Below are positions 47,653-60,735 of a stretch of 64,000 nt of DNA, piece after piece; the stretch's first letter is position 1; every line of letters starts with the position of its first letter. The notes below the pieces were generated by a model. It was not told the origin of the DNA. It saw only the letters and a list, made by a program, of their open reading frames with translations, and did no database searches. Source of the stretch: Antarctobacter heliothermus (lineage in GTDB: Bacteria; Pseudomonadota; Alphaproteobacteria; Rhodobacterales; Rhodobacteraceae); assembly GCF_002237555.1 (NCBI RefSeq), contig NZ_CP022541.1:308264-372263 (forward strand). Direction: 5' to 3'. A program made the translations under genes and the position numbers.

Positions 47653-48387
47653 TCAGGCGGCTTGATTGGCCCATTTCTGGCGAGATTTGCAGAGCGCGTT
47701 CGCAATCATAGCGAGCTTGCCTGCGACGGCTGTGTTGACAACCATATATGGCTTTCCCCCGGCTCGCAGGCGGTCAGCGAAGGTTTTCAGGATCGGGTTG
47801 TGATGACTGGCAACGAGGGCCGCCTGAAACATGACGTGTCGCAACTGGCGCCGTCCTCCTCCAATGGCACGCTTGCCCCGCATTGCGCCGCTGTCATGTG
47901 CGATTGGGGCCAGCCCCGCAAGCACGGCGGCCTGTTCACCCTAGAGTTGGCCGGGCTCGGGCCTCTCGGCGATCAGCATAGTGCTGGCGACGGGGCCGAT
48001 CCCGGGAACGGAACGCAGGATATCGGCAGTCGCAGCCAGGTCATCATCCGAGACCATTGTCTGCTCGATCCGCACTTCCAACTCTGCAATCTGTGTATCG
48101 AGAAGGTCTTTCAACTCGGCATCCATGGCGGCAAACATATCCGCCGATCCCAGCTTCCCCTGCGCCTTGATCTGCGCCAGAAGCCGTTTGCGTGTTTCGA
48201 AGAGCTGTCCGCGCTTTGTTACCGACGCCTGGAGAAGGCACAACTTTTCATGTGGCAATACACGTCCCACATCCGGTCGGAACGCCATGAAGCGCGCAAT
48301 GAGTTCCGCGTCGTTCCTGTCGGTCTTACCGCCTGTGCCCCTGGCTGCTGAAGACCGCGAACAGAAGACCGACCATGATCGAAGCAA
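47653..48387 (-). pseudogene. IS110-family transposase remnant, N-terminus missing and in-frame stop
   Basis: The minus frame carries GKTDRNDAELIARFM and the RuvC-domain end, then SVPGIGPVASTMLIAE. A TAG at 47941-47943 breaks the frame, which continues with VLAGLAPIAHDSGAMRGKRAI and the C-terminal Tnp domain ending NQAA. The N-terminal part with the first catalytic Asp is gone; at about 48340-48375 the sequence switches to an IS5-type fragment. The gene cannot be functional. Confidence 0.85.
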
Positions 48388-48649: not shown

Positions 48650-48922
48650 TTACGCAGCCATTTTCAGTTTCATTGCGGGCGTGATGCCACCAATGGCCAT
48701 GTTCGGGCGATCGTTGTTGTAGGACCAGAGCCACTGGGTGGCGAAGTGCTGAGCCTCCTCGATGCTGTTGATGATGTATTGGTCTAGCCATTCGTGCCGG
48801 ACGGTGCGGTTGTAGCGCTCGATGTAGGCGTTCTGCTGGGGCTGGCCGGGCTGGATGTGAGCCAAGGCAATGCCATGTTTCTCAGCCCAATCCAGCAGTG
48901 CCTGACTGATATATTCCGGGCC
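48650..48922 (-). pseudogene. IS3-family OrfB, C-terminal half, cut at the DNG motif
   Basis: Beginning at 48922 the minus frame reads GPEYISQALLDWAEKHGIAL, then QQNAYIERYNRTVRHEWL with the catalytic Glu, and ends KLKMAA. Upstream of the Gly, where the conserved SDN/CDN should be, lies the end of an IS110/IS1111-type element (48923-49037). The N-terminal half of this OrfB is not in the window. An inverted repeat rich in GTTAAAAACGGG follows the stop and probably marks the IS3 end near 48615-48640. Confidence 0.85.
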
Positions 48923-49037
48923 GTAACACCTTCGGAATGTTGTTGATGTTGAGGCTATGATTGCCTGCGCAGCCTCCAAATAGCGCAGCAGGTGATCATA
49001 GCCGGGTCTCAGGTCCCTACAGTGGTTTTGCACAAAC
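48923..49037 (+). mobile_element. 115-bp end fragment of an IS110/IS1111-type element
   Basis: Starting GTAACACCTTCGGAATG, this segment matches the reversed end of the element at 58813-60446 (60446 back to about 60332) with about one difference. It is cut by the terminal repeat of an IS3 element at 49038. It joins the host IS3 orfB exactly before the GGC codon of DNG, the same junction as the full copy. Confidence 0.85.
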
Positions 49038-58510: not shown

Positions 58511-58812
58511 ATTTCAGCGGTCTACCGCGAAGAGAAGCTGCAGTTGAGGAAGCGCGGCGGCCGGAAACGGGCCCTCGGAACGCGCAGGCCGATGCAGGTG
58601 CCCGAGCGATCGAATGAGCGCTGGAGCCTGGATTTCGTCTCAGACGCCTTCACTGACGGACGGCGGTTTCGTGTACTTGCAATCGTGGATGACTTCAGCC
58701 GCGAATGCTTGGCATTGGTCGCAGACACGTCGCTCTCGTGGCTGCGTGTCACGCGGGAACTCACGGCGATCATGGTCCGGCGAGGAAGGCCGAAGACCAT
58801 AGTCAGCGACAA
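58511..58812 (+). pseudogene. IS3-family (IS407-like) OrfB, N-terminal half, split by an IS110/IS1111-type element
   Basis: The plus frame reads VYREEKLQLRKRGGRKRALG, then RWSLDFVSDAFTDGRRFRVL, the first catalytic Asp in IVDDFSRECLAL, and ends RGRPKTIVSDN at 58812. The next codon should be GGC (Gly). It appears at 60447, after the inserted element, where the frame resumes with [12 protein letters not shown]. The 5' start and the orfA of this element are missing. Confidence 0.85.
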
Positions 58813-59074
58813 CGTCCTATGCGCGGAATAATTGGCTGATTTGGCATCAGGTCATTGTCATGCTGAAGCGTTCCAGCACGTTCGAATGTGTGTCAGTTCG
58901 GCATTTTGGTCAACAACATGTCTCTCCCATAACAAACACAGAGTACGCTTATTGCGGCTCTCACCGTCCTTAAGACGAGATCTTCGGGTCGTTGAGCAGA
59001 AGGCCTGAACATTATCTACGAGGTCGAATGCTCGCCTCTACGGCCCTTACAGAGAAAGGTCCTTCTGCTGTCAA
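58813..59074 (-). ncRNA. possible guide (bridge/seek) RNA region of the IS110/IS1111-type element
   Basis: This noncoding stretch lies between the transposase stop and the element end. IS1111-type elements are known to encode their target-guiding RNA on this side, while IS110-type elements have it before the gene. No structure could be computed here; the call rests on position and on the repeated use of one target sequence. Confidence 0.3.
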
Positions 59075-60307
59075 TCATCCCTCAAAGAAGGGACGATAGG
59101 GTTCGCCGCGGTTTATTATCCCATGCACGGTGCGGGCCATTTTTGCGGCGATTGCGGTATACGCCTTGCGACGTAAATGCGTGTTTTGACGATCCTTGGC
59201 GATGTAACGCTCGAACTTGTCGCGGAAGCTGTTGGTCTTTTGCATGATGGCGACCTGACCGGCCATCCAGAGCGTGCGGCGTAATCTGGCATTCCCATAT
59301 TTTGAGAGCTTGGTTTGGCCACGGAATGTGCCCGACTGGATCGTTGCGAGGTCCATCCCACAGAACTTCAAAAATTGGCGGTGATGCCGAAAGCGGCGCA
59401 GATCGCCTGCTTCTGCAAGGATGGTCAGCGCGTTGATCAGCCCGATCCCTGGGATGGATGTTAGCAGTTGATAGTCGTCGTTGGTCTTGAGAAGCTCAAC
59501 GGCGCGATCCTCAATCTCGTTGCGTTTGGCAATCAGGCCGCGCCCTTCACCCAAGACCAAACGGAACATCCTTGCAGCGTCGGAGTCCGGCGCAATTGGC
59601 AGGCCTACAGAGAACTTGGCGGTCTGATAAATATCTGCAAGCAAACGCTCTTTTGACACTTTGCGGCCGACCACGTCCCAAGCATCTGCAATGAAAGCCT
59701 CTTGGTCCATGGCAGAGATGAAATGCGGTGAAGGATAACGTTCGAGAAAGGCAAAGAACCAATCGCTGCGTGAGCTGCGATGAAAGCGGTCAGCCTCGGG
59801 CCAATACAGCGGCAGGTAGTGGGTCAGCACCCGATGCCAAAGTTCCGTCTTTGAGCGCGAGACTATGTCGTGCGTCTTGGACAACTCCTGAAGATCATTC
59901 GTACCGCTCAGCATTGGGTCGTGGTAAAACTGCTCGTTCCCGATCAGCATCATATGCAGGATGACTTGCGCGTCTTTCGGATCGTTCTTGTCCCAACTGT
60001 TGTTCAAAGCCTCACGGGTGCGCGCCAATGCGACCGAAGACACCAGCTTCACATCGAAACCGGCCACCCCAAGCCGGTAAGCGAGAGCGCGATGGTAATT
60101 GCCTGTAGCCTCAAAAGCCGCGCGGACAGGACGATCATACTCTGAGAGTGTAGAGATCAATCGATTGAATTCGTCGAGCTGGTTGAGAACGGTCAAACGG
60201 CGGCGGCGCTTTCGGCCCGGAACAGCGATCAAGACTTCATGGCGGGCCTTTGCGATACCAATCGCAACCAAAACAGGCTCGGTTTGTGCAATAGTGGCAT
60301 CGGTCAT
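59075..60307 (-). CDS. IS110-family transposase with altered first catalytic position
   Basis: 410 residues from the ATG at 60307. The N-terminal RuvC-like domain has VAIGIAKARHEVLIAVPG, FEATGNYHRAL (Glu) and NSWDKNDPKDAQVIL (two Asp). The C-terminal Tnp domain has LTSIPGIGLINALTILAEAG, KFCGMDLATIQSGTFRGQ and LSKYGNARLRRTLW. The family normally has Asp in the first motif (IDIAK); here residue 17 is Gly (codon GGT), which would remove one of the four DEDD acids. The protein may thus be inactive despite an open frame. Confidence 0.88.
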   Translation of the reverse strand: MTDATIAQTEPVLVAIGIAKARHEVLIAVPGRKRRRRLTVLNQLDEFNRLISTLSEYDRPVRAAFEATGNYHRALAYRLGVAGFDVKLVSSVALARTREALNNSWDKNDPKDAQVILHMMLIGNEQFYHDPMLSGTNDLQELSKTHDIVSRSKTELWHRVLTHYLPLYWPEADRFHRSSRSDWFFAFLERYPSPHFISAMDQEAFIADAWDVVGRKVSKERLLADIYQTAKFSVGLPIAPDSDAARMFRLVLGEGRGLIAKRNEIEDRAVELLKTNDDYQLLTSIPGIGLINALTILAEAGDLRRFRHHRQFLKFCGMDLATIQSGTFRGQTKLSKYGNARLRRTLWMAGQVAIMQKTNSFRDKFERYIAKDRQNTHLRRKAYTAIAAKMARTVHGIINRGEPYRPFFEG

Positions 60308-60446
60308 AGTCGGTCTCCCTTGCGGCGTGGTTTGTGCAAAACCACTGTAGGGACCTGAGACCCGGCTATGATCACCTGCTGCGCTATTTGGGGGCTGCGC
60401 AGGCAATCATAGCCTCAACATCAACAACATTCCGAAGGTGTTACGG

Positions 60447-60735
60447 CACCGAACTGACCAGCATAGCGGTGCTCAGATGGTGCCAGGAGACGCGGATCGA
60501 CTGGCATTACATCGCGCCAGGTAAGCCGATGCAGAACGCCTTCGTGGAAAGTTTCAACGGTAGCTTCAGAGATGAACTCTTGAACGAAACCCTGTTCTCG
60601 TCACTTGCCGAGGCCCGCGAGAAGATCACAGCATGGAAGGAAGACGACAACCGACACAGACCCCACTCATCCCTGGGCAATCTAACGCCGCAGGAATTTG
60701 CAATGAAATCGAGATTGGAAACCAAGGCCGCATGA
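60447..60735 (+). pseudogene. IS3-family (IS407-like) OrfB, C-terminal half
   Basis: From 60447 the frame reads [20 protein letters not shown], then [22 protein letters not shown] with the catalytic Glu, and ends RLETKAA. It is the continuation of the half at 58511-58812. In the current sequence an open frame also runs into it from the inserted element (from about 60334), giving a chimeric frame with no known function. The segment 60736-60849 contains the IS3 right end region (GGAGGGAAGTCGGG) and nothing else recognisable. Confidence 0.87.

Follow-up and report, generated by a model that had tools for sequence, protein, structure and literature searches.

An IS110-family element at the Asp-Asn-Gly codons of IS3-type transposase genes and the downstream RNA that may guide it there

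An IS110-type element that lies exactly in the codons for Asp-Asn-Gly (DNG) of an IS3 orfB gene raises the question of whether such elements seek the catalytic motif of other transposases and, if so, what in the element reads it. The case considered here lies in a 64,000-nt stretch of the Antarctobacter heliothermus contig NZ_CP022541.1 (positions 308,264 to 372,263), referred to below as the window. Comparison of sequences strongly supports the view that a large IS110 clade targets catalytic-motif codons site-specifically, in a manner that would depend on an RNA.

The element (1,634 bp, 58812..60445, minus strand) carries its transposase gene antisense to the host gene that it splits. The N-terminal piece of the IS3 orfB (58544..58811, plus strand) ends with the Asp codon and the AA of the Asn codon, and the C-terminal piece (60446..60735, plus strand) begins with the last base of that Asn codon; the host frame reads V-S-D-N, runs on as V-L-C-A-E-stop inside the element and resumes as G-T-E-L-T-S after it. 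The split is as the first-pass annotation had described it, and profiles for both host pieces (PF00665, rve, on the left; PF13683, rve_3, on the right) and for the insert agree. The exact ends required correction: among the own-genome copies, the base that separates AA from GG can be either C or T on the side upstream of the transposase gene and is always C on the other side, which places the element at 58812-60445, shifted one base to the left. It is plain from this anatomy that every such insertion would break the host transposase between its catalytic residues.

The transposase (recombinase) gene (59075..60307, minus strand, 410 aa from ATG) matches the Pfam profiles PF01548 (E 8e-16) and PF02371 (E 1.1e-25) and, on the longer 443-aa frame, NF033542 (E 8.8e-60, above cut-off); the element has both the DEDD/RuvC-type transposase and the Transposase_20 domain of the IS110 family. 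The flank tables show the one specific target, the one orientation and the lack of target duplication that also mark this family. It departs from the family in that the longer noncoding region, with the RNA described below, lies downstream of the transposase gene (58812..59074, minus strand) rather than upstream, where the noncoding side is short (60308..60445, minus strand). By eye, the window copy has CGGAAT some ten bases in from either end, and this match is longer in some relatives. Residue 17 of the transposase (60257-60259, minus strand) is Gly in the window copy and Asp in the other seven full copies; judging by its position, the residue should correspond to the first Asp of DEDD, and the window copy may be inactive owing to the Gly. 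An open frame at 60334-60735 begins in the transposase-upstream end of the element and continues in frame into the C-terminal host piece.

A second copy is represented in the window by a remnant of the transposase-upstream end only (48924..49037, plus strand), truncated at 49037 and joined at the same codons to the C-terminal piece of a different IS3 orfB (48650..48923, minus strand, rve_3). The first-pass annotation had correctly identified it as the same element end at equivalent codons, with a start at 48923 that is here moved to 48924. A different IS110-type fragment lies at 47941-48387 (minus strand; PF01548 below cut-off, NF033542 E 1.9e-16).

Target sites in the genome and among relatives

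A DNA search of the own assembly with the window element gave 13 matches, namely eight full copies, which differ from the window copy at no more than three positions, and five partial ones. Junctions were readable at ten distinct places (nine on both sides, L010 on one side), and at all ten the element is preceded by GAYAA and followed by YGG, in the frame Asp-Asn-Gly and within rve genes, in agreement with the proposed targeting of the second catalytic-Asp codons. Over their N-terminal pieces, the five hosts that were compared share 28-77%. The number of independent insertions was put at seven or more, since the flanks of L005 and L006 are identical and those of L003 (the same place as L203) look recombinant, with a left side of the L008 type and a right side of the L005 type; from this chimera, the element seems to be a seat of homologous recombination. 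In addition, an identical 2,960-bp block made of an IS3 plus the element was found at L201:2161-5120 and L202:3169-6128, bounded at both ends by inverted repeats (TGACGTGCCC) and without target duplication, which reflects either transport of the element as a passenger in the IS3 or two insertions into identical IS3 copies.

The own genome contains 27 matches to PF13683 and 29 to PF00665, the two profiles often hitting one and the same gene. Twelve readable genes have the GAYAAYGG motif, and the element occupies ten of them; the two free ones (L150 and L164) lack the C at position +5 that is present in all ten occupied sites. The element is absent from all 13 genes with DQG (8), DKG (1) or DKA (4) (Fisher p 2e-5 against the DNG-type genes, with near-identical copies counted separately and with six free DKL genes and the fragments without a readable motif left out). 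It should be noted that 612 intact GAYAAYGG octamers and 72 GAYAAYGGCNC 11-mers carry no copy (557 and 68, respectively, for the reversed patterns), so that the restriction to transposase genes is not explained by the guide alone; either some further recognition exists, or insertions outside transposons get lost.

Relatives of the element were collected from family genomes (295 searched, 18 with a match, the own genome included), species genomes (80 of 267 loci kept), plasmids (103 records at 1e-60, part of which were sampled) and phylum genomes (398 searched, 5 with a match, again including the own). Among the 128 loci examined, both junctions could be read in 94, and merging of 14 duplicates left 80 distinct flanks. 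The flank survey proposed at the outset bore out the target, since 73 of the 80 sites read GAYAAYGG: GACAACGG at 34, GACAATGG at 23, GATAACGG at 11 and GATAATGG at 5. The seven deviating sites are L034, L046, L052, L096, L098, L106 and L121; at L046, one element end abuts the element's own other end and there is no host gene. The remaining 34 loci lacked at least one usable junction; on manual reading, 28 of them retain some flank, and GAYAA or YGG fits in 25, the exceptions being two one-sided places, L026/L036 (one place) and L195.

A detectable DDE gene is the host at 74 of the 80 sites. Phmmer comparison with the uninterrupted DDE proteins of the window's genome gave a match in at least one half at 68 sites (in both halves at 30), and rve or rve_3 at E<1e-3 added six more (L044, L052 and L124; below the Pfam cut-off L020, L064 and L127), with the DDE half of L020 on one side only. 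Three further hosts (L069, L095, L106) are DDE-like by eye only, and no DDE match was found in the flanks of L034. Over the whole collection of host halves, rve_3 is present in 64 of 78 C-terminal halves and rve in 55 of 74 N-terminal ones. The NCBIfam models matched by these 74 N-terminal halves are IS3 (52), IS481 (34), IS6 (2) and ISNCY_2 (1), several models per half being common. The host range, first given as IS3, has to be widened to IS481 and a few other models. In one relative, L072, the element splits a CIA30 gene at GACAATGG; recognition is thus of the octamer in the DNA, and the gene itself as target was rejected on this ground.

The target extends to distant relatives. DNG junctions were found in an element on an Acidobacteriota plasmid (L186), whose transposase is 56% identical, and in L193, a relative at 45% that belongs to a different class of the phylum, and a copy on a Rahnella plasmid (L199, Gammaproteobacteria) adjoins a DNG C-terminal half and has by eye the same target loop, its donor loop being unmatched. 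Two named families belong to the clade: a copy that RefSeq assigns to ISRel25 (79% identical) splits DNGTEL, and one assigned to ISMex12 (70%) is flanked by an NGPEF half on the side that could be read; neither name nor target was found in the literature searched. A DNA search of E. coli genomes with the window's element found none; E. coli E1 has a remnant (L216). At 1e-3, no DDE half flanks the outgroup elements L190, L191, L200 and L214, and L213 has only a weak one (1e-4). Matches were obtained in 18 phage records, with 22-29% identity among the 15 matches listed. As a separate observation, broken genes of IS3 and IS110 are clustered side by side in E. coli EC17CM2 (L217, L221), where several IS3 genes are cut beside IS110 pieces.

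A bridge-RNA-like RNA downstream of the transposase gene

Loops complementary to the DNG target and to the donor ends, which the first-pass annotation had suggested looking for, were found in the noncoding flank downstream of the transposase gene. The conserved noncoding RNA that contains them resembles a bridge RNA (58920..59068, minus strand), and the 5' end of its modelled part lies at 59068, directly after the transposase stop. The collection gave 79 distinct noncoding regions out of 104 and 56 representatives, of which 54 were aligned after exclusion of L088 and L099 for length. As in bridge RNAs, the alignment folds into two stem-loops with internal loops and with covariation support: in a 28-pair version, 97.6% of the cells pair and 20 of the 28 pairs change on both sides. 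Cells changed on both sides number 120; 500 shuffles average 26, a comparison that relatedness inflates, and slid partners give 2-10, a control that retains relatedness. Folding of the window RNA as a single sequence was no better than that of its shuffles (z +0.73), and Rfam gave one sub-threshold match only, on another part of the element.

The first loop would read the target. Its left guide (59040..59046, minus strand) is GGGCCGU here and GNGCCGU in most relatives, and its right guide (59010..59016, minus strand) is GAUAAUG, which places a U opposite the last base of both the Asp and the Asn codon; such a U pairs with A and forms a wobble with G. The guide may thus accept GAC or GAT and AAC or AAT by wobble, a reading aided by the rG:dT pair that the cited part of the IS621 study reports (PMC11208160). 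At the 72 of 80 sites with a readable RNA, guide and target pair at 12.56 of 14 positions in register and at no more than 7.44 at shifts of up to 6, and the guide reads about 11 positions. Target loop and target are both nearly invariant across the relatives, and the pairing is supported by this register test. In a single case, L047 from a Kozakia plasmid, the left guide is GCCAU instead of GCCGU, with a matching T at site position 0. An extra pairing of the conserved RNA motif UCUCUG with a downstream GAG codon was dropped by eye, as it is absent in L193 and L186.

The second loop would read the element itself. Its left donor guide AGGACG (58965..58970, minus strand) equals the element end TAGGACG, and its right donor guide GUUAUG (58928..58933, minus strand) is complementary to the element start TAAC. 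A scripted reading of the 79 distinct elements found that the donor loop fits the end in 71: LE TAG(C) occurs with GCUAUGG in 49, TAA with GUUAUGG in 21, and TAGTA with ACUAUGG in one (L193). Five do not fully fit, including L106 and L015 (which fits by wobble), and three are unreadable. For the left donor guide, examined by eye in the alignments, RE TAGGACG stands with AGGACGG, TAGTACG with AGTACAG in L186 and TAGTCCG with AAGTCCCG in L193, and L017 has RE TAGGCCG without a matching change of the guide. The donor loop covaries with the element ends, as in bridge RNAs, these changes representing few evolutionary events.

How the elements came to their sites

We consider it very probable that a broad clade of IS110 elements integrates in one orientation into the DNA that encodes the DNG motif, with the second catalytic Asp, in transposases of the rve fold such as those of IS3 and IS481, by means of an RNA encoded downstream. 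The RNA encoded just downstream of the transposase gene would be made, bound by the recombinase and used; its target loop would pair with the DNA for Asp-Asn-Gly and lead to insertion in one orientation, with U at the two degenerate codon positions presumably accepting C or T by wobble, and its donor loop would pair with the element ends. The insertion would silence the host transposon and give the element a harmless home.

Such a distribution could also arise from low specificity combined with selection, if elements were led by the guide to many GAYAAYGG-like sites and survived only in dispensable transposase genes, for which the empty octamers and 11-mers, the copy in the CIA30 gene and the small number of positions read by the guide would speak. 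We regard this as unlikely. The own-genome copies are almost identical, which points to a recent spread, and still every one of the ten places is in an rve gene. With equal likelihood for all matching 11-mers, the chance that seven independent insertions fall only in rve genes would be about 2e-7. The two free DNG genes deviate from the guide at +5. Spread of a single ancestral insertion, by recombination or with the host transposon, finds examples in the two copies that share the 2,960-bp block with inverted repeats at its ends and in L003, which resembles a recombinant of two other loci, and it can hold for single copies such as these. As a general account it was rejected and is extremely improbable, because near-identical elements sit in hosts that differ up to the junction, as expected from independent insertions rather than from one insertion followed by recombination, and because the identities of elements and hosts are uncorrelated (Spearman -0.013, 1,872 pairs).

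It is also conceivable that the transposase protein reads the target and that the conserved RNA structure serves some other purpose, since covariation does not prove complementarity where target loop and target are nearly invariant. This is very unlikely in our view, given that a single internal loop matches one target strand with each of its sides, with the geometry described in the cited part of the IS621 work and in one register only, and that the donor loop changes with the ends.

Comparison with known systems

The first-pass annotation had supposed that a DDE-motif target was new. This does not hold, as Siddiquee et al. (2024, PMC11187229) have already traced the target of ISEc21 to IS3 transposase genes, at the second-D codon and its surrounding codons. 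The novelty of a catalytic-motif target, published for this one other element, is thus partial, and the most interesting aspects are the likely convergence, the orientation and the proposed wobble reading.

Taking these together, we lean towards a joint reading in which the DDE motif is a recurrent RNA-guided address, for which at least two remotely related IS110 lineages would have evolved guides of opposite orientation (DNG antisense, DQG sense) and would thereby hit complementary sets of transposons. The U/wobble spelling would ignore synonymous change, the guide would have been kept across proteobacterial classes and Acidobacteriota while the donor loop drifted, and the element would act as a near-saturating silencer of DNG-type transposons. 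The case as such shows a predicted RNA guide that stays fixed on a protein-level signature, and a host transposon could escape only by a change in the codons of its catalytic motif or by another residue such as Gln, an alternative that is exactly what ISEc21-type elements attack. An arms race between transposons thereby becomes testable. The guide would be a naturally occurring one designed to disregard synonymous differences between codons, and many bridge-RNA-like systems become available in which the RNA lies at the downstream end.

The likeness to ISEc21, as presented in the cited part of PMC11187229, lies in the second-D codons of IS3 transposases that both target and in the order of the matches, with the bottom-strand match 5' of the top-strand match. 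Three ISEc21-type loci were examined (L222 and L223, named ISEc21 in RefSeq, and L224, an unnamed relative); in all of them the insertion point separates Asp from Gln in HSD|QGSQY or HSD|QGSHY, and the element runs in the same direction as its host. These elements use DQG codons in sense, encode 358 aa and have the longer noncoding stretch upstream, whereas the window element uses DNG codons in antisense, encodes 410 aa and has its RNA downstream; neither codons, orientation, RNA side nor transposase lineage are the same. The window transposase has no phmmer hit to that of ISEc21 (best blastp E 0.04), and the L193 transposase matches it with E 1.5e-4 over 66 residues, which makes the two lineages remote members of one family. 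Given these differences and a transposase similarity that is only remote, the shared second-D address is likely convergent.

With IS621 (cited part of PMC11208160), the window element shares the order of the loops, the first for the target and the second for the donor, and the pairing of the 5' side with the bottom strand and the 3' side with the top strand; it differs in that IS621 targets REP elements and has its RNA in the transposase-upstream end, whereas here transposase codons are targeted and the RNA lies in the other end. A downstream noncoding region is reported for some IS110 members in the cited part of Siddiquee et al. (PMC11187229), and a longer downstream region with the RNA is the point of likeness to the IS1111 group (ISEc11, ISPa11, ISKpn4). 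As described there, that group has transposases of 330-350 aa, subterminal inverted repeats 11-13 bp long that are extended by 7 and 3 bp, and target matches in the opposite order, with the top-strand match 5' of the bottom-strand match. The window element, in contrast, has a 410-aa transposase and the order of IS110, with the bottom-strand guide first; its subterminal match, as judged by eye, is short. Finally, in being specialised on other transposons it resembles IS4321 and IS5075, which are described as IS1111-type elements.
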